A stretch of 64,000 bases of DNA, from the NCBI RefSeq assembly GCF_002000055.1, contig NZ_MVBD01000008.1:1-64000 (forward strand). Reading direction: 5' to 3'. Under the pieces are notes generated by a model, which did no database searches, had not been told where the DNA came from, and saw only the letters and a program-made list of their open reading frames with translations. The position numbers and the translations under genes were made by a program. Source of the DNA: Marinicella sediminis. GTDB lineage: Bacteria; Pseudomonadota; Gammaproteobacteria; Xanthomonadales; Marinicellaceae. Below are positions 6,282-43,376 of the stretch, in pieces (position 1 is the stretch's first letter; each line of letters starts with the position of its first letter).

Positions 6282-6462
6282 GTAAATGGTTTCTTGCTGT
6301 GGGAATGGGTGATGTTAATGTCATTTACTAGCTGCCTCTGTGCATAGAACAAGACTGGGCAGTATACAAATACAGCACCAAAGACGAATGATGTGATCAG
6401 TGCGTTGCCCAACCGTTGTTTTGCGTTTGGCTTGGGTTAGAATGGATTCACGGAGGGATGTT

Positions 6463-33172: not shown

Positions 33173-33763
33173 ATGCACTACAGATCATATATCGGCAAAC
33201 CTGATGGCTATGACATATTGGCTGCAAACCAATTTGAAGTTTTAAACCACTTGGGGCTGAGAGAGTTCCACAAAATACTGGATTTGGGCTGTGGATCTTT
33301 GAGGTTAGGTAGAATACTCATCCCATATTTATTGAAGCATGGTTACTTTGGTGTTGAGCCCAATATCCAGTTAATTATGGATGGAGTAGAGAACGAACTG
33401 GGTTGGGATGCCATTAAAATCAAGCAACCACAGTTTTTGCCAGTCGAAGACTTTTCTCTGTGGCGTTTAGCAACACAATTCGATTTTGTTATAGCTCACA
33501 GCATTTTCACACATACTTATCCCGAATTGGCTGTTCATGCTTTACAGAATGTTAAGCAAGTGCTTGCGCCACGTGGTCTATTGGTCTGTACTTTTATTGA
33601 AGTGGATAAGCAGCCTTTTTACAGCAAGGAGGGGTGGGAATACCCTGTTTGTTTGGGCTATACAAAAGAAGTTATTCATTCCTTTTTTGACAAGGCAGGT
33701 TTCAAAGGAGAGCCATTGAATTTCCCCAACCCCTGTCAATCCTGGTGGCTGGGGTATAACTGA
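33173..33763 (+). CDS. class I SAM-dependent methyltransferase (RiPP locus)
   Basis: A 196-residue protein with motif I in KILDLGCGSLRLGRILIPYL (residues 34-53) and the acidic end of the next strand in YFGVEPN. FDFVIAHSIFTHTYPE is the motif-IV region. It belongs to a widespread family that starts Y-x-G-P-P/D-x-YD and has the LGCGSLRxGRxLIPYL signature. Substrates of that family are not established, and members often sit in polysaccharide or natural-product loci. It is first in a three-gene operon ending tail to tail with the YcaO gene. There is no clear ribosome-binding site before the ATG. Methylation of the peptide is possible but inferred from position only. Confidence 0.8.
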   Translation: MHYRSYIGKPDGYDILAANQFEVLNHLGLREFHKILDLGCGSLRLGRILIPYLLKHGYFGVEPNIQLIMDGVENELGWDAIKIKQPQFLPVEDFSLWRLATQFDFVIAHSIFTHTYPELAVHALQNVKQVLAPRGLLVCTFIEVDKQPFYSKEGWEYPVCLGYTKEVIHSFFDKAGFKGEPLNFPNPCQSWWLGYN

Positions 33764-33809
33764 CCCAAGATATACACACCAAAACAGTGAACTATGAAGC
33801 AATAGAAAC

Positions 33810-34568
33810 ATGTCCATAAACAGACAGATTATTACCAATGCTCACATTGAAAAGGTGTTTCATGATTCCAACGTGATGAGAATGTGTGAAATCAAATGTT
33901 CACGATCTGTGTATTTAAAGCATCTGGGGCAATACCTATACAACTCCAGACCGTTTATGTGTGACACCGGACTTCAGGCCAAAAAAGTAAAATCAGACTT
34001 GGATCATCAAATGATTCCCATGCTTTTTGAGTCTCACATTTTAAAGAGAGACTACCGTACTTATTCCGAATCTGTGCTGCAACTGTTTCAGGATTTGAAG
34101 GGCTTGAGCGGCATCAATCGGGTATTGGTTTCAGTGAGAAACTTTTTTGCCCCAGGGGATCTTGTGTGGCATGTAGATCGTTCAACTAAGCGCCGTGCCA
34201 TCAGAGTCATTTGGCCATTGGCCCGGGACCACGGAACCTTGTATACACCGACTGAAAACATTGATTTGGATATGCACACCGCTTACATGAACCGTGAACA
34301 TCCTTTGTTGAGTCTTTTAGACCGTCAAGTATTTGACAAAAATATAAGCTATCGGGAAAACTGGCATCACCGCCCGTATCAAGTCAATGCAATGCTTCAT
34401 TGTGATTTTCCATTCATTAAAGATGCAACAAAAATCAAAGAAGCCGACCCTGACAGCATTGCTATTCACAGATTTGATACGGGCAAGTCTGATGGAACTT
34501 ATCATTGCTCGTCGTCCAGGAATGAAGTGACTCCAGGATTGCAAACAATATTTACCGCAACAGAGTAG
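33810..34568 (+). CDS. possible Fe(II)/2OG-like or DUF1826-like protein (RiPP locus)
   Basis: A 252-residue soluble protein of uncertain family. Two features hint at a cupin or Fe(II)/2-oxoglutarate fold: a His-x-Asp in DLVWHVDRSTKRRAIRV (H121, D123), and a late histidine and arginine in GTYHCSSSRNE (H232, R237) just before a final strand, QTIFTATE. This order resembles DUF1826, which has FHxD and a late HRSP. It starts 46 bases after the methyltransferase and ends 3 bases before the aldo/keto reductase ATG, so the three are one operon. If iron-dependent, it could hydroxylate or otherwise oxidise the repeat peptide. The name is a hypothesis. Confidence 0.4.
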   Translation: MSINRQIITNAHIEKVFHDSNVMRMCEIKCSRSVYLKHLGQYLYNSRPFMCDTGLQAKKVKSDLDHQMIPMLFESHILKRDYRTYSESVLQLFQDLKGLSGINRVLVSVRNFFAPGDLVWHVDRSTKRRAIRVIWPLARDHGTLYTPTENIDLDMHTAYMNREHPLLSLLDRQVFDKNISYRENWHHRPYQVNAMLHCDFPFIKDATKIKEADPDSIAIHRFDTGKSDGTYHCSSSRNEVTPGLQTIFTATE

Positions 34569-34571
34569 ATT

Positions 34572-35534
34572 ATGCGTTACAGAGAATTTAAACGGTGTAA
34601 CACCAAAGTTTCAGAAATTGGCTTTGGTACTTGGGGATTTGATACACAATTGTGGCGGGATGGCAATGTGCACGATTTTGCCAAAAGTCTCAATATAGCT
34701 GTTGAGCTTGGAGTGAATTTGGTCGACACGGCTCTCGTTTATGGAGATGGCCAGGCAGAACAAATCATTGGAAAAGTCATCAAGTCTTTCCAGAACCGAA
34801 AAGAACTTTATGTGGCGACAAAAGTGTCCCCCATGATGCCAATTTCTATTCCATCGCCGCATATTCACGCAGATGAGGCATTTCCCAAAAACCACATCAG
34901 AAAAGCGACCGAACAGTCTTTAAAAAATCTAGGTTTAGAGTGTATCTTTTTGCAACAACTCCATGCATGGACACCCAGGTGGCTTACTGAAGGAGAGTGG
35001 TTACATACGCTGTTAGAACTTAAAAAAGAAGGTAAAATACAGGCCATTGGCGTGTCCCTTCACGACCATGATTGCATCAGCGCTGTTGACTTGATCAAAA
35101 GTGGATATGTGGATTCAATACAAATTCAATATAATTTATTTGACCAGGGACTAGATCGATACATTGGTGATATCGCAGCTAAAAATGGAGTTGCTGTTCT
35201 GGCCCGTTCTCCCTTGTATGCCGGAGCACTGGCAGGTAACTATGCCAGTAATCAACAGTTTAAACAGGGGGACTGGCGGTCTCATTTTTTTGAAAATCAA
35301 CATCTGACTGAAGTTAATCAAAGAATCGCTCGAATTCAGCATGATTTCAATTTACCGCCAGGTGCACTGGCTGACTTTGCCTTGAATTTTGCCGTTTCCA
35401 GCCCTTACTTAAGCTCGGTACTGGTAGGAATGCGCTCACCACTTCGGGTGTACGACACCATCAATATCGCTCAGAAACCTTACATGTATGATCATGTGAG
35501 AGCGTTTTGTGGTCGATATGATTGGCTATCCTGA
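34572..35534 (+). CDS. aldo/keto reductase (RiPP locus)
   Basis: A 320-residue NAD(P)H-dependent TIM-barrel reductase. The catalytic tetrad is visible: Asp52 and Tyr57 in LVDTALVYGDGQAE, Lys84 in VATKVSP and His131 in LQQLHAWTP. The C-terminal cofactor region contains SSVLVGMRSPLRV. These enzymes reduce aldehydes and ketones, and some act on imines. It is translationally linked to the preceding gene (3-base gap), and its stop lies 8 bases from the stop of the convergent YcaO gene. In this setting a carbonyl or imine on the modified peptide is a plausible substrate, but that is an inference. A housekeeping role cannot be excluded. Confidence 0.85.
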   Translation: MRYREFKRCNTKVSEIGFGTWGFDTQLWRDGNVHDFAKSLNIAVELGVNLVDTALVYGDGQAEQIIGKVIKSFQNRKELYVATKVSPMMPISIPSPHIHADEAFPKNHIRKATEQSLKNLGLECIFLQQLHAWTPRWLTEGEWLHTLLELKKEGKIQAIGVSLHDHDCISAVDLIKSGYVDSIQIQYNLFDQGLDRYIGDIAAKNGVAVLARSPLYAGALAGNYASNQQFKQGDWRSHFFENQHLTEVNQRIARIQHDFNLPPGALADFALNFAVSSPYLSSVLVGMRSPLRVYDTINIAQKPYMYDHVRAFCGRYDWLS

Positions 35535-35542
35535 GAATGAAT

Positions 35543-36727
35543 TCATCCTATTGGGTGAGGGAGGTGGTTGAGTTGTTCCGACATCAAGCCAAGATCCTTT
35601 AATCTTTTACCTCCTGTATAACGGTATGCGTGATTGTATTCTTTTCTAAAGGCGTGAGGTACGATCACGCGACAGACATAAAATCCTTCTGTCCGAAAAT
35701 CTGGGGGTGTCGTGTCCACCAGCAAGGGTCTACCCAGCCCTAAGTTAACACAAGCAGTCAGTGGATCATGATTTACATTTCGCTGAGTCATCATGTGAGT
35801 TGGTTTGTACCAATCCCACACTTTTTTACCATTGAACCATCCCCATAAGACATGATCTTCGCTGGACATGATTTGATGAGTAAGTTGCCTGTTTTCCTGA
35901 CTCATTAATAAAGCTGACCCTCTGAGCATGAGCGCCTCAAGTGCCGATTTTTGAATGTCCTGCTCTGTACTGCCACCGCAAGCCACGCCAATTGTGGTGC
36001 GATATAAATGATCTGTAAGTAAAGTAATGACAACACGTATGCCATGTTCGCTGCCAATGTCCAGCAAACGATAACTGAGGTTTTGAATTGCGAACTCATC
36101 CTGTAAGTCAGGATGTAATAATGTTCGATCTAAATTGATTTTTGGGTAATTTGGCACTTTCCAGGACAGCATCAAAGCATCCCGCTCCAAAACTTCGCAC
36201 AATGCCCTGTCTGTGGTTTCGGATTTTCGGTCTGAAAAACCGGCCGCAAATCCAACCCCATCCGTTTCAGGCAACGGTAAAACACATTCGCTGAAAGATT
36301 TCCACCAGGGAAATACAGCTTCTGCTGGTATGAAATGTATAGAGCCGTCGACCAGATCCTGGGCAGCAACACTCATTGTTGGCTGTCGACTTCTGAGCTT
36401 TTCCAGCCATTTAACCTGTTCATCAGAATAAGGAAAGAATTCAGCGAGAGAACGATTTGATTCCACAGATTTGGCAAGTGTCTCCATTGCCCAAAGAGAC
36501 AGGCCAGCACAGCGTTCGACCCCTTCCATAAAACACTTAAATCTTGCGATTTCTGGGTTAGACGACATGCCTGCAAAAATGTGTTTTCTGCCACCTTGAC
36601 GGGTTTTCACCTGAAGCTCAAAAAAAGCCCCCCAAATATTGTGAGTTTGTCCTTCACAATATACCGGTATGTCTTCAATGGATTGATATTGAGCAGTTCT
36701 GATCGATGCTGGTAATTGTAGTTTCAA
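35543..36727 (-). CDS. stand-alone YcaO-family peptide backbone-activating enzyme
   Basis: A 394-residue YcaO. ATP/Mg-site signatures are present: SSNPEIARFKCFMEGVER (residues 55-72) and TTDRALCEVLERDALMLSW (171-189; E178, E181, D183). YcaO enzymes phosphorylate peptide amides to form azolines, amidines or, with a partner, thioamides. No E1-like/Ocin-ThiF, TfuA or flavin dehydrogenase partner is encoded nearby. The C-terminus reads NHLPHPIG, only a partial match to the PxPxP end of azoline-forming cyclodehydratases. The only start after the upstream stop is TTG 36727, which follows the HEXXH gene stop by one codon in the same frame, so translation is likely coupled. Last gene of the leftward operon. 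Confidence 0.92.
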   Translation of the reverse strand: MKLQLPASIRTAQYQSIEDIPVYCEGQTHNIWGAFFELQVKTRQGGRKHIFAGMSSNPEIARFKCFMEGVERCAGLSLWAMETLAKSVESNRSLAEFFPYSDEQVKWLEKLRSRQPTMSVAAQDLVDGSIHFIPAEAVFPWWKSFSECVLPLPETDGVGFAAGFSDRKSETTDRALCEVLERDALMLSWKVPNYPKINLDRTLLHPDLQDEFAIQNLSYRLLDIGSEHGIRVVITLLTDHLYRTTIGVACGGSTEQDIQKSALEALMLRGSALLMSQENRQLTHQIMSSEDHVLWGWFNGKKVWDWYKPTHMMTQRNVNHDPLTACVNLGLGRPLLVDTTPPDFRTEGFYVCRVIVPHAFRKEYNHAYRYTGGKRLKDLGLMSEQLNHLPHPIG

Positions 36728-36730
36728 AGA

Positions 36731-37969
36731 TTAAACCACGTAATCGTTTCCGACACGCTTGTAGTAGGCCGGGTCGGGTTCTGGAAGCGTTCTTTTGAAC
36801 CAGTCAAGCACATGACACATCCCGGCATAGAGCGCTTGGCCTTCTTCAGTAAATGAGGCGTATTTAGACAGGGAGTCCATACCCTCAATGAAGCCCAACA
36901 AATGCCTATGCAGCCGAAAATACACTTCGTCTTCTTTTGAAAATTGGACCTGGTGCTTGAAGAACATGACTAACCTCATAAATACAAATGTCGAATGAAG
37001 TATGCCAATCATTGGCCTGGGGTCTTTTCTGATGGGTGATGGTGCGCCGTAAAAATCCGGATTTTTCAAAACAGGAGAAACTTCATTTGCTGTGTGGAGC
37101 AAAATGTGTGCGGACTCATGAATTAAATGGTCTGCGAAAGTGTACTTTGACCACTGTAAGTCCAAGTTTAAGAACGCAACACCATGGTAGGCAATGTCAG
37201 AACCGCCCACAAATCGGTCACCACTTAATAAGGCTATGGCATCCATGAGGACATTAACTTCGTCGAAGCGTTCCTGTCCGCTTTTTATGATTAACTCCAC
37301 ACCGTTTTTCAATCCATCCTTGAGTACATCCACCTCGGGTTCGTGCGGCATTCTGATATGTAAATTTTCGGCATTGTTAATTGGTTTTGATGCAATGCCA
37401 TCAAGTTCTGCCAGGTATTCATTCAATACACTTGAATGAGAATGGATGATGATATCCGTTTTTTCTACTTTGTTTGTATTTGCTTTGCGAATATCTATCA
37501 GCTGTCTGATGTCAGCAGTATTGACTTGATAAGACCTGCCATCAATACAATGCAAAATCAACAATTCATAACCAATGCTGAGTTCATAAACAGGAACAGA
37601 AAAGACATAATCGGCTTGCGGAATATGGCTTATTGCATGAGGAATAGCCAGATTAATTTGCTCATCAGGTTTGATTGTAATGATGAGCTGCCCAACCATT
37701 AACTCAATTAACTTATCAATATAAGGCACTAACGCATCATGTTTGAAATGTTGGGGGGCATTGGATAACCAGTAATAAAGTGGGGCACCAATTGCATAAC
37801 GATCCCCTTGCTCTGCATTCATTTTTAGATAATCAAAACAATTGACCAAAGACCGATGATGAGCCTCAGAATGAGCGCAAATACGCTCTATGTCTGAGAT
37901 AATAATGCAATCCAGCAATCGCCTCAAATGCTCCGCCATGTTGGCGGACGGAAAAATAATGGGATGCAT
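36731..37969 (-). CDS. HEXXH-motif protein, putative peptide beta-hydroxylase (aKG-HExxH type)
   Basis: A 412-residue protein. The metal motif is HESAH (284-288) in DHLIHESAHILLHTANE. It is followed by YGAPSPIRKDPRPMIGILHS (307-326), where His325 is a likely further ligand and Arg-Pro-Met matches the family's conserved RP. This layout is that of the HEXXH-motif peptide-modification family, members of which were shown to be 2-oxoglutarate-dependent peptide beta-hydroxylases rather than proteases. The N-terminal 230 residues are helical and may bind the leader. The ATG is 7 bases after the precursor stop, and YcaO follows after 3 bases, so precursor, HEXXH and YcaO form one unit. Confidence 0.85.
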   Translation of the reverse strand: MHPIIFPSANMAEHLRRLLDCIIISDIERICAHSEAHHRSLVNCFDYLKMNAEQGDRYAIGAPLYYWLSNAPQHFKHDALVPYIDKLIELMVGQLIITIKPDEQINLAIPHAISHIPQADYVFSVPVYELSIGYELLILHCIDGRSYQVNTADIRQLIDIRKANTNKVEKTDIIIHSHSSVLNEYLAELDGIASKPINNAENLHIRMPHEPEVDVLKDGLKNGVELIIKSGQERFDEVNVLMDAIALLSGDRFVGGSDIAYHGVAFLNLDLQWSKYTFADHLIHESAHILLHTANEVSPVLKNPDFYGAPSPIRKDPRPMIGILHSTFVFMRLVMFFKHQVQFSKEDEVYFRLHRHLLGFIEGMDSLSKYASFTEEGQALYAGMCHVLDWFKRTLPEPDPAYYKRVGNDYVV

Positions 37970-37976
37970 CTATTAT

Positions 37977-38687
37977 TTATTTCTTTTTGGCTTTGGGGTT
38001 TGCTGATTTGGTGTCAGAGTCATTGTTTTCCTCCAACCCGGCAGCCTTTTGCGCCTGTTCCAAAGCTTTCATTGCCTTTTCAGGCCCCAAAACGGATGCC
38101 AGTTGAATGAGCATCGGTTGCAGTAAATTCACGCCACCATCGACGCCATCTGCAGGATCGAGGGCATTCAATCTGTTGTCATTGTCAGGGCGGTAGCGGA
38201 TCATAGCGCGATCAGGTCGACGGGTGTCAACATCCGGGCGGTAGCGGATCATGGCGGCATCGGGTCGACGGGTGTCAACATCGGGGCGGTAGCGGATCAT
38301 GGCGGCATCGGGTCGACGGGTGTCAACATCCGGGCGGTAGCGGATCATGGCGGCATCGGGTCGACGGGTGTCAACATCGGGGCGATATCGAATCATTGCA
38401 CCATCTGGTCGACGATAGTCAACATCAGGACGGTAGCGGATCATTGCGCCACCAGGTCGACGGGTGTCGACATCGGGGCGGTATCGGATCATGGCAGCCG
38501 TAGGCCGACTGTCCGTATCCGGACGATAGCGAATCATGGCACGGCTTCTGGTATTCTGTGCTGAAAACGCTTGGTCTACTGCGTTATAAATAAGTGCGCC
38601 AAGGTTGCCAGAATGACCCAGATTGTCATCAAAAACGGCGTCTTCCAAGGCCTCTATTCTTCTTCTAAAAGCGTTAAGTTGTCCCAT
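37977..38687 (-). CDS. multi-core RiPP precursor candidate with eight 16-residue repeats
   Basis: A 236-residue protein. Residues 1-49 form a helical leader (LNAFRRRIEALEDAVFDD) with no signal peptide. Residues 50-176 are eight tandem units of consensus AMIRYRPDVDTRRPDA. AMIRYRPDxD is invariant. The position after the second Asp is S, T, Y, T, T, T, T, N in order, and the unit ends vary (PTA, PGG, PDG, PDA, PDR, NAL). Residues 177-236 are a helical, Lys-tailed follower (PMLIQLASVLGPEKAMKALE). No cysteine occurs in the repeats, and Ser/Thr occurs at only some positions. A strong AGGGAGG lies 6 bases before the ATG. The adjacent HEXXH and YcaO genes make it the likely substrate. A purely structural repeat protein is the alternative. 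Confidence 0.8.
   Translation of the reverse strand: MGQLNAFRRRIEALEDAVFDDNLGHSGNLGALIYNAVDQAFSAQNTRSRAMIRYRPDTDSRPTAAMIRYRPDVDTRRPGGAMIRYRPDVDYRRPDGAMIRYRPDVDTRRPDAAMIRYRPDVDTRRPDAAMIRYRPDVDTRRPDAAMIRYRPDVDTRRPDRAMIRYRPDNDNRLNALDPADGVDGGVNLLQPMLIQLASVLGPEKAMKALEQAQKAAGLEENNDSDTKSANPKAKKK
38160..38540 (-). repeat. eight 48-bp tandem repeats encoding the core units
   Basis: Eight in-frame units (the first 45 bp) run leftward. Units 5, 6 and 7 are almost identical at the DNA level, while units 1-4 and 8 carry synonymous changes (for example CGATATCGAATCAT in place of CGGTAGCGGATCAT, read on the + strand). This fits recent amplification of the inner units with older outer ones, while the protein motif AMIRYRPDxD is kept in all. 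Confidence 0.95.
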
Positions 38688-38691
38688 TTTG

Positions 38692-38760
38692 CCTCCCTAA
38701 ACAATTAAAAAATAATCACACGTAAATCAATATACTACATATTTGCACAAATTGCATGAA
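38692..38760 (-). promoter_or_regulatory. precursor ribosome-binding site and possible promoter region
   Basis: Leftward, AGGGAGG (38692-38698) is an unusually strong Shine-Dalgarno for this window, as expected for a highly made precursor. A TATATT hexamer (38729-38734) is a possible -10 box without a good -35. On the + strand TTGCA occurs twice, 9 bases apart (38743-38747 and 38752-38756), and could bind a regulator. The 75-base gap could give the precursor its own promoter, separate from the upstream methyltransferase. Confidence 0.4.
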
Positions 38761-38762
38761 AA

Positions 38763-39503
38763 TTATTTAATACTTACCAAGACCAATGAATGAGAATCAT
38801 CATCATATTTAGCGCCACTTAAACTGCCATAGGTCTTTACCTTTTTAAAGCCCGATGACTTTAGGCTGTTAACGAGTTCATCAGAAGAATATAACCAGTG
38901 TGAAACCGTTTCTGTTGCCTGTACTTTGCCATTCTTTAACAGTGTCCATGTAAAGCGATTCTTCCTTGAGCCAGCTTTATATAAAGATGTTTCGATCAAA
39001 GTGTATTCGCCCATATTGAATTCTCTTACTGGTTCCCGGTTACGTTCAAAGGCCTCCAGGGTTATCAGCTCCATAATGAACTTTCCTCCGTTTTTTAAAC
39101 TGAGAAATACATTATCCAGCACCTTCGTGTTATCTTCTGGAGCTTCAAAATAACCGAATGAAGTCCACAAAGACATAACAGTTTCAAATTGTGTCTTGAA
39201 AGAAAGATTTCGCATGTCATTGTGAACCCAGGATACGTTTGCTTGTTTCTTCAAAGCGGCTTCTTTTGCCTTTTGAAGCAAATATCTTGATTGATCTAAG
39301 CCATAGACGTCAAACCCCAGGAGACTGAGTTCAATAGCGTGCCTGCCAACACCACAACCTAAATCCAGAATTTTCGAATGGTGCGGAATGGAGACAAGAT
39401 CAAGTAACTGTTTCACTTCGTTTTTTGCATCTTCGACTTTGGAGTCATTAAACAAAACGACACCAAAGGTTTGCCAAAAGGATTCATTTTCATACCATTT
39501 CAT
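38763..39503 (-). CDS. class I SAM-dependent methyltransferase upstream of the precursor
   Basis: Started at ATG 39503 (AAGGAT nine bases upstream), this gives 246 residues; in-frame codons before it extend to 39602 but look non-native. Motif I is KILDLGCGVGRHAIELSLLG, then YGLDQSRYLL; motif IV is in FETVMSLWTSFGYF. It is unrelated in detail to the methyltransferase at 33173. It is read in the same direction as precursor, HEXXH and YcaO, ending 75 bases before the precursor, so it may belong to the same transcription unit and methylate the product. Its right side is bounded by transposase remnants. Confidence 0.8.
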   Translation of the reverse strand: MKWYENESFWQTFGVVLFNDSKVEDAKNEVKQLLDLVSIPHHSKILDLGCGVGRHAIELSLLGFDVYGLDQSRYLLQKAKEAALKKQANVSWVHNDMRNLSFKTQFETVMSLWTSFGYFEAPEDNTKVLDNVFLSLKNGGKFIMELITLEAFERNREPVREFNMGEYTLIETSLYKAGSRKNRFTWTLLKNGKVQATETVSHWLYSSDELVNSLKSSGFKKVKTYGSLSGAKYDDDSHSLVLVSIK

Positions 39504-39659
39504 GTGCTTATCCTTGAAAAAATTGATTTGACCATTTTGTATCCCATAACGCTTGCTGTGATTTTGCCACAAGAACCCGTGATCTTTTCCAGTGTTTATC
39601 ACATGATGATTGCGCCATTCAATTGGTTATATTGTAATCCCCATTCCTAACCGACTTTA

Positions 39660-40066
39660 TATAAGGTTCACATGGTCCTGGTAAATCGTACAATCCTGCC
39701 CAGGTCATCAAGACCCTTTGGTCAGACTAATTGGCATTGTTATTGACCTTCAGGACGATATGAAAGTGGTTTGACATCACTGCATAGGCACAGATGTCAA
39801 TGCTGAATAATTTAGCCAGGTATTTCATGCGTTCAACGACCCACTTCCGTCGATGCTCGAAAGTTCGCCCAGAAGCATGATCATCACCACACAGGAAAGC
39901 CCTGCGGACGCATCTTGAGACGACATGATAATAGGGCGTTTCTTCCAGACAAACTTGGTATAACCTTGCCAGTCCCATGGTTTTCTCGGTTTCAAACCAT
40001 GATTTTCAGAAATTCAGCTGGAAATAGCTGTGGCAAATGTATGAAGTGTACGTATGATATTTCTTA
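39660..40066 (-). pseudogene. RAYT element remnant, copy B
   Basis: The leftward frame from 39978 encodes the N-terminal 83 residues of the RAYT (ETPYYHVVSRCVRRAFL, MSNHFHIVLKVNNN), then hits a stop. About 60 further bases resemble the MTWAGLYDLPGPCEP region before homology ends near 39660. The right flank (39979-40064) is nearly identical to that of copy A. Most of the transposase and the left end are lost, so it is immobile. It marks the right boundary of the RiPP locus. Confidence 0.85.
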
Positions 40067-40334: not shown

Positions 40335-43300
40335 TTACTGCAATAACCGAGAAATGGAAGCATTGTTTTTATACAGCCCGCCGCCGGGGGTTAATGGGTA
40401 AGTGATGTCAAGATCGGCCGTGGTATCGATGCCAAAATCGATACTGAATGGTCCGGCAGATTGGCTGGACAGGGTGCCGCTGGTGGTTCTTGGGTAGCCG
40501 GTGTGGTGTTGCATGCCGTATGTCAGGTTACCCAGGGATGAATGTACTGAATGATCAGAGACCCATCTGCCGATGCCGTTGTTGTCATAATAATAAACCA
40601 CTGCAAATGATTCTTTACTGGATGCTTCATGGGTTTGTAGTGAGATTCCCCAGCTGCCAGAATGGGTGGGCTCATAATACACGCCAGAGTGGAGTGCCGG
40701 CAGGGCGGGTGTATCATTGCTGTTTTTAAAGATGGGTTGAATACACCAGTTGCCTGATTGACCATTGATGTTCCAGTAGAACGAACCCAGTTGCATGCGA
40801 CGGTCTTTGCCTGCACAGTGGGCATTGCTGTTAACCTGGGTCTCGCCGTAATTCAGGCTGAAATTACCCACGGTGGTGTGGGTTGTTGATTGGCTGTTAA
40901 AATCATAAGTGACCTGGTTGAGGGTTCCGGACATTTGGTTGTTGGCATAGGTGCTGCTGCCATAAAACCATTCCGGGTGGCCGTTTTGGTCGTATGATGA
41001 GAAGTACAGGTAGTACGTCGAACCGCTTTGTGAAATGTGTATGCCATGGCCACTTCTTAAGGTGTCATAACTGAAGCCCCTGACAGGTGTTGGGTATGAT
41101 GTTTCAAGCAGAGCAGGGTCCTCAAACAGCACATTTTGGCCGACATGCTGGTCTTCATCCGCAATGAATACCATGTCCGAGATGTGACCGGTGAATGATT
41201 GTCCCACGGGGATCCGGTAAGTGACCCAGCCAGTGCCAGAATAATTGTGATGGCTTTGATTGCCGTAGATTTCGGTGCCATCAACCTGCCACACCCTGGC
41301 CGGTGTTACTGAGTTGCTGCCTGCCATGATGAAGCCGATGCCGGATATTTCGTTTTCCTGACGGTTGGATTTGAATTTAAATTCCAACACCGTGTCCGTT
41401 GTGACCTGGTAATCATAAGCTATTTTTTTCCATGAATTGCCCATGAATTTAAGCCGGTTGTTGTTAGTACCCACCACCACATAAGAGGTGTGTTCGAGGT
41501 CTTCGCCATTGCCATAGCTGAGTAATGGTTCACCCATGAAAGGCGGCTGAGCTGCAGTGGCCGGGCGTGTAAAGCATTGTTCATTGCTTTCTATGCCGTC
41601 GCTGACAACCCAGAAGCACAGCCCATTTTTGTTGAATAGATTTTGTAGATACAAATTCTGAATGGGAAATTGCAGCCTTTCCTGACCGTTGTAATCTGAG
41701 CGAACGTAAATGTCGTTGCCAGCAAATTCGGCCAATACGGGACTGTTGGCTGCATTTGCTCTGACTTTAACCGAAGCATCGGCTGCGAAATTGTTCCCCA
41801 ACATGCGGATACAGTAGTTGTTGTTACACACCGGGTAGGCATCTTCCAGCACCGGAATGATGCTGCTGATGGCCTGGTACAGATCAGGTTGAGGCCCGAT
41901 GTGACCGGTATCACCTGTCACTTGTGGGGTGCCGGTGGAACTCAGCAGGTTGCGCATACCATAAGAATCATATTTTGGCTTACCGGCATTGTCAGCGATG
42001 CTCTGAATGGTTGCTGCGGCGCCAACCACGATGGGTGATGCGCCGGACGTGCCGCCAAAAACAGCGGTATACAAACTGTCTTCTGAGCCCACATTCTGTA
42101 AGTCTCCGTAGCCGGTTGTGGTGATGTTTTCACCCCATGCATGGACATCCACCCGGCTACCATAATTGGAAAAACAGGCCCGTGTGCGAGAGGTTGAGAG
42201 ACTGGCACCAACGATGATGGCCCCAGAGTCCTGGACTTTGCGATTAAAGGCGCCCTGATAAATGGGGTCATCCAGATTTACGCTGCCATTGGCTCCTGCC
42301 TCGATGACAATGATGCCATTGGCGGTGGCTTGTTTGATTGCTGCAAATACCGCCGGTTCACTTTCCACAGGAACGTATCTGCAATTGTTGCTTGTGCACA
42401 CACAGGTGTTGCCGGTTTCAGGTCCGTATGACTGCATTTCCAGCAGCATGATGTCTCCGCTGGCCATCGATGCCGCGGCACTGGTGATGGCACTGGCACG
42501 GCCTTGAGTCTCTGAGCGGAAACCCATGATGGCCTGATCGGCAATGCCTTTGATTCCCAGTTGATTGTCCTCAGCGGCGATGATGCCGAGTACCGCTGTG
42601 CCATGATCCCGATAGCCGGGATAATGGTTACCTGCATCGTCAGCAAAGACCGGCAGGTCTTCATGGGTGGTGTTGAAAGAGTATTCAACATCAATGATTT
42701 TGATGTTTTCACCCTGACCATTTGGCAAGCTCCAGGCAAACTGGGCATCGATGCCATTGGGCGCAGGTAACAAGTAACCTTGTGAAGCGCCGAAGTCCGG
42801 GGTATTGGACTTGACCAATGGTGGTGGTGCCATTGATTCTGCATAGGCCACTTCAATGATTTTTAATTGGTTCAAAGCCTCAATGAGTTGTGCCACGTCC
42901 TGGTAATGGCTGCCTTCAGGCAATGGAGCAGAATGGAATAAATTCAAATCCACTAAGTCCTGCCGGACGTTTCGTTCAGCATTGATTCGGCGGTTATCCA
43001 GATAGTCTTCTGCCAAAGTTGCGAATGTTCTCTGAGCGGTCAGCTGGTGTTTTTTTAATAATCCATCAACGACTTTCAGGCTGTCATTCACCTGCTGAGC
43101 TGAGACTTTCTTTGTGGCGAATTGATCAGGCAGGAACGTGGTTTGGTTTTGTTGAATGGCGATGCCACTTCCTTCAATGTATTTGATGGTAATCGCAGTG
43201 ACTGAGGTTGTATCTGGTAACACCAGTCTGGCATATTTCATCCTGGGGTCAAGGTCATACAATGAGTCAGTTTGGGCCTGTGAGGTGAAGGTGAACAGCG

Positions 43301-43376
43301 TCAAAAGTATCAGCCAGGAGATTTGTGGCAGGACACGATTGAGCCGTCTTCGGTGTGTTTGAGCTTTGTCTTTCAT
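40335..43376 (-). CDS. secreted S8-family subtilisin-like serine protease
   Basis: A 1013-residue protein with a long signal peptide (ISWLILLTLFTFTSQAQ) and a pro-region of about 180 residues. The S8 catalytic triad is Asp in KIIDVEYSFN (about 230), His in YRDHGTAVLGIIA (about 258) and Ser in GGTSGASPIVVGAA (about 447). The oxyanion region contains VIEAGANGSVNLDD. The C-terminal 500 residues are beta-rich extracellular domains with WFYGSSTYANNQ and similar motifs, probably binding or secretion modules. It is predicted to be extracellular and to degrade protein. It is a single-gene unit with its own terminator. Confidence 0.9.
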   Translation of the reverse strand: MKDKAQTHRRRLNRVLPQISWLILLTLFTFTSQAQTDSLYDLDPRMKYARLVLPDTTSVTAITIKYIEGSGIAIQQNQTTFLPDQFATKKVSAQQVNDSLKVVDGLLKKHQLTAQRTFATLAEDYLDNRRINAERNVRQDLVDLNLFHSAPLPEGSHYQDVAQLIEALNQLKIIEVAYAESMAPPPLVKSNTPDFGASQGYLLPAPNGIDAQFAWSLPNGQGENIKIIDVEYSFNTTHEDLPVFADDAGNHYPGYRDHGTAVLGIIAAEDNQLGIKGIADQAIMGFRSETQGRASAITSAAASMASGDIMLLEMQSYGPETGNTCVCTSNNCRYVPVESEPAVFAAIKQATANGIIVIEAGANGSVNLDDPIYQGAFNRKVQDSGAIIVGASLSTSRTRACFSNYGSRVDVHAWGENITTTGYGDLQNVGSEDSLYTAVFGGTSGASPIVVGAAATIQSIADNAGKPKYDSYGMRNLLSSTGTPQVTGDTGHIGPQPDLYQAISSIIPVLEDAYPVCNNNYCIRMLGNNFAADASVKVRANAANSPVLAEFAGNDIYVRSDYNGQERLQFPIQNLYLQNLFNKNGLCFWVVSDGIESNEQCFTRPATAAQPPFMGEPLLSYGNGEDLEHTSYVVVGTNNNRLKFMGNSWKKIAYDYQVTTDTVLEFKFKSNRQENEISGIGFIMAGSNSVTPARVWQVDGTEIYGNQSHHNYSGTGWVTYRIPVGQSFTGHISDMVFIADEDQHVGQNVLFEDPALLETSYPTPVRGFSYDTLRSGHGIHISQSGSTYYLYFSSYDQNGHPEWFYGSSTYANNQMSGTLNQVTYDFNSQSTTHTTVGNFSLNYGETQVNSNAHCAGKDRRMQLGSFYWNINGQSGNWCIQPIFKNSNDTPALPALHSGVYYEPTHSGSWGISLQTHEASSKESFAVVYYYDNNGIGRWVSDHSVHSSLGNLTYGMQHHTGYPRTTSGTLSSQSAGPFSIDFGIDTTADLDITYPLTPGGGLYKNNASISRLLQ

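Follow-up and report, generated by a model that had tools for sequence, protein, structure and literature searches.

A multi-core precursor encoded with an HExxH-type peptide hydroxylase and a stand-alone YcaO in Marinicella sediminis: a probable peptide-modification operon with an uncharacterised enzyme pairing

Seven open reading frames (ORFs), arranged as two convergent operons, fill positions 33173–39503 of a 64,000-nucleotide stretch of Marinicella sediminis (contig NZ_MVBD01000008.1, positions 1–64,000; hereafter the window). The leftward operon encodes a repeat-bearing putative precursor, a protein with an HExxH motif and a YcaO protein. We consider it probable that this operon makes a multi-core ribosomally synthesized and post-translationally modified peptide (RiPP) that undergoes both hydroxylation of its core and modification of its backbone; this judgement does not extend to any coupling between the two steps, which we treat separately below. 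The locus is real rather than a product of chance, and in all likelihood it is a RiPP cluster whose pairing of enzymes is uncharacterised. The RiPP reading follows from family models, from purifying selection on the repeat unit and from two actinobacterial clusters in which the same pair of enzymes lies beside tiny conserved ORFs. These three lines also uphold the central claim of an earlier note, written by a model from the DNA letters, which had described an RiPP-like operon of multi-core precursor, HExxH protein and stand-alone YcaO and had assigned its product to no nameable class.

The precursor consists of a 49-residue leader, eight units spaced by 15 and then six times by 16 residues, and a C-terminal tail, and so combines a leader with several conserved cores, as a multi-core precursor should. 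Ten unit positions are identical in all eight copies (Ala1, Met2, Ile3, Arg4, Tyr5, Arg6, Pro7, Asp8, Asp10 and Arg12); position 9 varies between T, V and N, and position 11 is successively S, T, Y, T, T, T, T and N. Over the first eight codons, the 28 unit pairs differ by 93 synonymous changes in 151.7 sites (pS 0.61) and by no amino acid change in 520.3 sites (pN 0). That silent sites have drifted while the residues of the unit have not changed argues that the core peptide is under selection, and points clearly to strong purifying selection at the protein level. A search pattern spanning two motif copies matches seven times in the window against 0.00 expected from 100 shuffles, Tandem Repeats Finder reports a period of 48 with a score of 448, and the G+C content of the repeats is 0.609 compared with 0.454 for the window. 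No family model scored above its cut-off for the precursor. The repeat region contains one Ser, seven Thr and no Cys, and also lacks Lys, Glu, His and Trp. The description of the cores as free of Cys and poor in Ser and Thr thus holds overall but fails at position 11, which is Ser or Thr in six of the eight units, and the case that had been built on it against ordinary azole formation is weaker than was stated.

The gene that follows the precursor encodes a protein that scores 79.6 bits against TIGR04267, the model for alpha-ketoglutarate (alpha-KG)-dependent HExxH peptide beta-hydroxylases (curated cut-off 40). It carries HESAH at residues 284–288 and RKDPRP at 314–319, 30 residues on, and its best match in the Protein Data Bank (PDB) is ChlH (8s5f), in an alignment that spans the HExxH and SPxRxDxRP signatures. 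Both motifs occur in 16 of 22 relatives, in 12 of them at the spacing found in the window; five lack the second motif and one (L044) has neither. These features support the prediction of a peptide beta-hydroxylase-type enzyme. The residues hydroxylated by characterised enzymes of this family are Asp, His, Gln, Phe and Pro (PMC12636437, PMC13060819), and one pair, PflC/PosC, additionally cuts the backbone at Ala (PMC12636437).

The YcaO of the cluster is divergent and stand-alone. It exceeds the cut-off for the general YcaO family (PF02624) but not that for SagD-type proteins (TIGR03604; 83.0 bits against 219.25), although the latter is its best-scoring subfamily model, and it has EGVER and EVLERD where an alignment places conserved motifs of other YcaOs. 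YcaO enzymes activate a backbone amide at the expense of ATP. Searched on its own against the PDB, the window YcaO retrieved no solved chain at an E value of 0.1; a profile of three YcaOs, this one and two actinobacterial ones introduced below, retrieved TruD first and then LynD, MJ1094, another YcaO and MusD. A PF02624 search found only one other YcaO in the genome, on a separate contig (L047:8114-10396). This is an OsmC–YcaO fusion above the cut-offs for TIGR03549 and for the S12 methylthiotransferase accessory model. As the genome thus has a separate copy of the housekeeping type, we reject that role for the window YcaO and regard it as an extra copy.

The features of the region are as follows, MT1 and MT2 being S-adenosylmethionine (SAM)-dependent methyltransferases and AKR an aldo/keto reductase.

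33173–33763, plus strand: MT1, first gene of the rightward operon (PF08242, 38.5 bits; cut-off 30)
33810–34568, plus strand: ORF2, an orphan protein of 252 residues with no family match
34572–35534, plus strand: AKR, beginning 3 bp after ORF2 (PF00248, E 4e-46)
35543–36727, minus strand: stand-alone YcaO, 394 residues, TTG start, ending in LPHPIG (PF02624, 82.7 bits; cut-off 25.7)
36731–37969, minus strand: predicted alpha-KG-HExxH-type peptide hydroxylase, 412 residues (TIGR04267, 79.6 bits; cut-off 40)
37977–38687, minus strand: multi-core precursor, 236 residues (repeat analysis)
38541–38687, minus strand: putative leader, residues 1–49, with a GGGAGG ribosome site upstream
38160–38540, minus strand: eight core units, AMIRYRPD-x-D-x-R invariant in all eight
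37977–38159, minus strand: C-terminal tail beyond the eighth unit (residues 177–236 and stop), possibly a follower
38763–39503, minus strand: MT2, heading the leftward operon (PF13649, 61.8 bits; cut-off 27)

Transcription of the leftward operon runs from MT2 through the precursor and the HExxH protein to YcaO, with gaps of 75, 7 and 3 bp, and that of the rightward operon from MT1 through ORF2 to AKR. The tight packing that had been noted for the leftward unit, and the 8 bp between the convergent stops of AKR (35534) and YcaO (35543), are confirmed by the coordinates, and the two methyltransferases and the aldo/keto reductase by Pfam matches above cut-off. MT2 is taken to start at the ATG at 39503; an alternative GTG at 39602 is also in the open frame. 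Promoter-like sites in the region number 13 against a shuffle mean of 14.8, and terminator-like sites 8 against 6.3; since both occur at about the shuffled frequency, such sites do not define the transcripts.

Family scans covered ten ORFs of the locus region and ten flanking ORFs, smaller ORFs lying outside the scan. Among the scanned ORFs we found no E1-like protein, TfuA, azoline dehydrogenase or transporter, as the earlier note had stated. Its statement that a protease is absent applies to the cluster proper, the Pfam scan finding none among the seven genes, but not to the surroundings: a subtilase (S8, PF00082) at window positions 40335–43376, just past MT2, could be the leader protease or unrelated. 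Between the cluster and this subtilase, a short ORF (39727–39978) has a weak, below-cut-off match to REP-associated tyrosine transposases and is perhaps a remnant.

Only two other loci were found to hold the enzyme pair. A plasmid of Streptomyces microflavus NA06532 (NZ_CP054927.1), reached through its HExxH protein, encodes in order an HExxH protein, a YcaO, a methyltransferase, a P450 and an aldo/keto reductase, with a ferredoxin-like frame, recognised by eye, between the last two; the HExxH and YcaO genes overlap by 1 bp as annotated. Searching plasmids with this YcaO revealed a second cluster, in Embleya sp. NBC_00896 (NZ_CP108777.1), in which the HExxH protein, YcaO and methyltransferase are 43%, 51% and 54% identical to those of S. 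microflavus and a PhyH oxygenase lies nearby. An unannotated ORF precedes each HExxH gene (24 residues, L035:6452-6526, in S. microflavus; 26 residues, L051:5689-5769, in Embleya). Their sequences, MNEEIEQVPEEELPELALMVDVPS and MNEVIEPVTPEELPELPLLIDLPGDQ, are identical at 15 of 24 residues, contain no Cys and have in common a good ribosome site and an Asp within [VI]D[VL]P. Because they are conserved and stand before such enzymes, we read these ORFs as probable RiPP precursors overlooked by annotation, and their shared Asp could plausibly be a site of hydroxylation. Like the window cluster, both have adjacent HExxH and stand-alone YcaO genes, a class I methyltransferase and a putative precursor without Cys, but they have single precursors of 24–26 residues rather than eight cores, and an additional P450 (Streptomyces) or PhyH oxygenase (Embleya). 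Comparison of 33 YcaOs showed EALMxRxS within the third motif in all three HExxH-linked proteins and in none of the other 30, and a PHPxG ending in the same three and in none of the 29 others with a frame closed by a stop codon, a signature that was picked after the alignment had been viewed and two of whose three carriers are close relatives. For the methyltransferase of each of the three clusters, the leading NCBIfam model is that of daptide methyltransferases, in every case below its cut-off (69.1 bits against 175 for MT2).

Several observations count against the RiPP reading, or are unfavourable or neutral to a shared origin of the three clusters. Trees group neither the three YcaOs nor the three HExxH proteins, and by the approximately unbiased (AU) test enforced groupings are neither rejected nor established (p 0.225 and p 0.407, respectively); the window proteins sit on very long branches in both trees, the YcaO tree retaining all 30 profile matches and leaving out the OsmC–YcaO fusion, which the profile did not match. 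By BLAST, the window YcaO is closer to three YcaOs with no HExxH link (L048, 62.0 bits; L066, 60.1; L049, 57.8) than to those of Streptomyces (44.7) and Embleya (39.7), and the window HExxH protein is closer to one from the same class that has no YcaO (L038, 85.9 bits) than to those of Streptomyces (56.6) and Embleya (50.4). There is no recognisable homology between the window precursor and the actinobacterial ORFs, MT2 leads only narrowly among the Marinicella matches to the Streptomyces methyltransferase (E 0.0032 against 0.0048), and no leader-binding partner, E1-like or RiPP recognition element (RRE), was identified in the scanned ORFs. The Streptomyces aldo/keto reductase is closer to another ORF of the Marinicella genome (E 3.1e-7) than to AKR (E 0.043), and the Embleya locus gave no aldo/keto reductase match, so we rejected the reductase as a part common to all clusters. 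The unjoined trees, the BLAST ranking and the reductase mismatch together mean that the HExxH–YcaO pair may have been assembled independently, and it is quite possible that this happened separately in the window and actinobacterial lineages.

The proposed place of the rightward operon in the pathway is similarly unsupported by the reductase comparison, and the relevance of MT1, ORF2 and AKR is uncertain. ORF2 had been suggested to be of the Fe/2OG type, a suggestion that found no backing: it matches nothing in Pfam, NCBIfam, PHROGs or the PDB, and nothing in plasmids, phages or 368 further genomes of the class.

We propose the following sequence of events for the leftward operon. The precursor presents eight copies of one core between leader and tail. 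Using Fe(II), O2 and alpha-KG, the HExxH enzyme would hydroxylate a conserved core residue at its beta-carbon, most likely Asp8 or Asp10, and YcaO, as its family suggests, would activate a neighbouring backbone amide with ATP. The new hydroxyl might then act as the nucleophile in place of Ser, Thr or Cys and yield a 5-substituted oxazoline, for example an oxazoline-carboxylate from beta-hydroxy-Asp. MT2 may methylate the product, and a separate protease would free cores of 15–16 residues.

Of this scheme, the coupling, in which the core is hydroxylated and then cyclised, is tentative; it is one possibility among several, and we place it first among the candidate chemistries, ahead of an uncoupled amidine or thioamide, an azoline at position 11 and oxidative excision. 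As the window core lacks Cys and the C-terminal 17 residues of the Embleya ORF lack Ser, Thr and Cys, the nucleophile may be external or made by modification. A daptide YcaO uses an amine nucleophile made by prior modifications (PMC12670281). Phenyloxazole RiPPs, YM-216391 among them, probably arise from hydroxylated Phe. Together these points place coupling first. If it were true, residues beyond Cys, Ser and Thr would give rise to backbone heterocycles, and azoline-like chemistry could extend to them. The occurrence of the pair beside Cys-free precursors makes the idea directly testable, and eight near-identical cores per chain provide a built-in replicate for mass spectrometry.

The two enzymes might instead work independently, the HExxH protein hydroxylating the core and YcaO making a backbone amidine or thioamide. 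The lack of Cys in the core agrees with this, as does the example of bottromycin, both of whose YcaOs are partner-free and one of which forms an amidine (PMC8442711). However, no TfuA was found among the scanned genes, the repeat region offers no Lys as an internal amine, and the streptamidine YcaO apparently depends on AmiB, for which a resemblance to a cyanobactin heterocyclase is predicted (PMC8442711). The gap of 3 bp between the HExxH and YcaO genes here, and their overlap in Streptomyces, suggest that they act jointly, and we regard the independent scheme as doubtful.

Doubtful as well, and set by us after the independent scheme, is ordinary azoline formation, in which YcaO would heterocyclise the Ser or Thr of position 11 and hydroxylation would be a separate decoration. 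In six of the eight units that position holds Ser or Thr, the SagD-type model is the best for the window YcaO even though the score is below cut-off, TruD leads the PDB matches of the three-row profile, and the PHP ending is kept, as it is in several of the comparison YcaOs. Yet position 11 varies beside ten that do not, the last 17 residues of the Embleya ORF are free of Ser, Thr and Cys, and neither an E1-like partner nor an azoline dehydrogenase was seen among the scanned ORFs.

An oxidative excision of the cores would account for the reductase. Here the HExxH enzyme would cut at each Ala1, as PflC/PosC does at ARMD, leaving cores that are amidated at the C terminus and bear at the N terminus a keto group that AKR would convert into a lactyl cap. 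Ala1 is invariant in all eight units, none of the seven genes encodes a protease, and the reductase would be given a substrate. As described in PMC12636437, PosC cleaves at Ala, including at an internal motif, and twice in an ARMDARMD construct; it gives ketone products and tolerates the replacement of R, M or D singly, but with three motifs it spared the one nearest the leader. Excision also sits poorly with the single, short ORFs of the actinobacteria, in which Embleya has Pro where S. microflavus has Ala, it depends on a reductase whose membership in the pathway the Streptomyces comparison does not support, and it leaves YcaO unexplained; we consider it improbable. The boldest version that we can offer is a long shot: a class of RiPPs in which an iron enzyme writes the nucleophile and YcaO closes the ring, and in which the window HExxH protein would also cut at Ala1 and AKR reduce the keto N-terminus of amidated cores, with no protease involved.

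It is very unlikely that the locus makes no RiPP at all and that the repeat protein is structural or binding, with HExxH and YcaO acting on the whole protein or another target: the precursor has no family above cut-off and no transporter appeared among the scanned ORFs, but precursor, HExxH and YcaO form an operon with gaps of 7 and 3 bp, two actinobacteria carry the same enzyme pair next to very short conserved ORFs, and the housekeeping-type YcaO is a different gene.

Compared with known systems, the locus lacks defining features of thiazole/oxazole-modified microcins (TOMMs), TfuA-dependent thioamides, daptides and bottromycins, and fits, at the level of sequence, those of the HExxH family and of multi-core precursors; it is most likely a real, uncharacterised RiPP variant. 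As in TOMMs there is a YcaO domain (PF02624), but the SagD-type score is too low, the core is not rich in Cys, Ser and Thr, and no E1-like/ThiF partner occurs in the ten locus and ten flanking ORFs, smaller ORFs being unscanned. Thiovarsolin-type precursors have a modular repeat core on which a YcaO acts, much like the one described here, but their thioamidation depends on TfuA, for which no scanned gene gave a match. In daptides (PMC12670281), the YcaO also acts on a nucleophile made by modification, and a methyltransferase model is shared with MT2, although below cut-off; in daptides, however, decarboxylation and transamination come first and the YcaO then works on the modified C-terminal Thr, the word HExxH is absent from that text, and no aminotransferase is found among the seven window genes. 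Bottromycin (PMC4603692 and PMC8442711) likewise has partner-free YcaOs and methyltransferases, but two YcaOs and radical-SAM proteins, against a single YcaO here and seven genes that yielded no radical-SAM match; the word HExxH appears in neither text. The PflC/PosC pathway of Pseudomonas (PMC12636437) has in common a stand-alone alpha-KG-HExxH enzyme acting on a RiPP precursor and a cluster without a protease; it differs in having an MNIO–nitroreductase fusion and a GNAT protein instead of YcaO and methyltransferase, a leader of the nitrile-hydratase type and a single core. We found no paper on the HExxH–YcaO pair in the literature searched, from whose coverage most subscription journals are absent; one paper (PMC12452194) holds both words, YcaO occurring only in the title of a reference.

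The core itself was not seen elsewhere. In a collection of 84,980 species, a two-motif DNA pattern (MIRYRP, then RYRP 15–45 bases on) matched only three chance stretches, which we rejected as homologues of the repeat because they are off-frame or within unrelated genes and have no cluster enzymes alongside. Such a scan misses altered cores, and the source genome or near-identical records may be absent from the collection, so the result says no more than that this core did not turn up elsewhere. A stricter two-copy pattern had no match in viral contigs, and the precursor none in plasmids. At E values up to 1, the precursor matched in 12 of the genomes of 40 other relatives (best E 1.4e-4), but on inspection the best two matches were a low-complexity protein (L019) and what seems to be a Cys-rich repeat gene read out of frame (L020), and both were discarded. 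The earlier note had named wide occurrence of such repeats away from HExxH or YcaO genes as evidence against its reading; no such occurrence emerged, searches of the species collection, plasmids and relatives giving chance matches, none and a low-complexity best match, respectively. The L020 sequence (L020:1-1114, from a genome of the same genus) has a frame of tandem CGEGKCGGDDKKAEGK repeats followed by a protein that by eye resembles a DUF692/MNIO enzyme, and appears to be another repeat-type RiPP-like locus.

The two enzymes are also sparsely distributed. We found no relative of the HExxH protein in 100 other relatives (17 listed as the same genus). Across the class it has relatives in 7 of 368 other genomes, and further ones turned up in 8 of 387 others drawn from the phylum and in six plasmid records, of which five were examined and one (Photobacterium H6) was left out. 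The window YcaO matched in 2 of the 368 genomes of the class, both distantly, once in plasmids (Helicobacter, 26% identity over 60%) and not in viral contigs. After one of 21 HExxH loci (L046, a GGDEF protein) had been dropped, a 33-row YcaO profile detected no YcaO at any of 20 other HExxH loci, mostly within about 6.5–8 kb per side and within less at contig ends (L040, L043, L045 and L091). Conversely, no HExxH protein was found at 22 actinobacterial YcaO loci within flanks of 1.5 kb (21 of 345 genomes, five candidates per genome being scored). Two further HExxH contexts were observed in passing. In a genome of the same class (G133), a frame of 115 residues (L038, from position 6449) with three GAKIGK motifs stands just before the HExxH gene and is possibly a precursor, and on a plasmid of Streptomyces hirsutus (L036) the HExxH gene adjoins ThiF-like, TldD-like and lantibiotic dehydratase genes.

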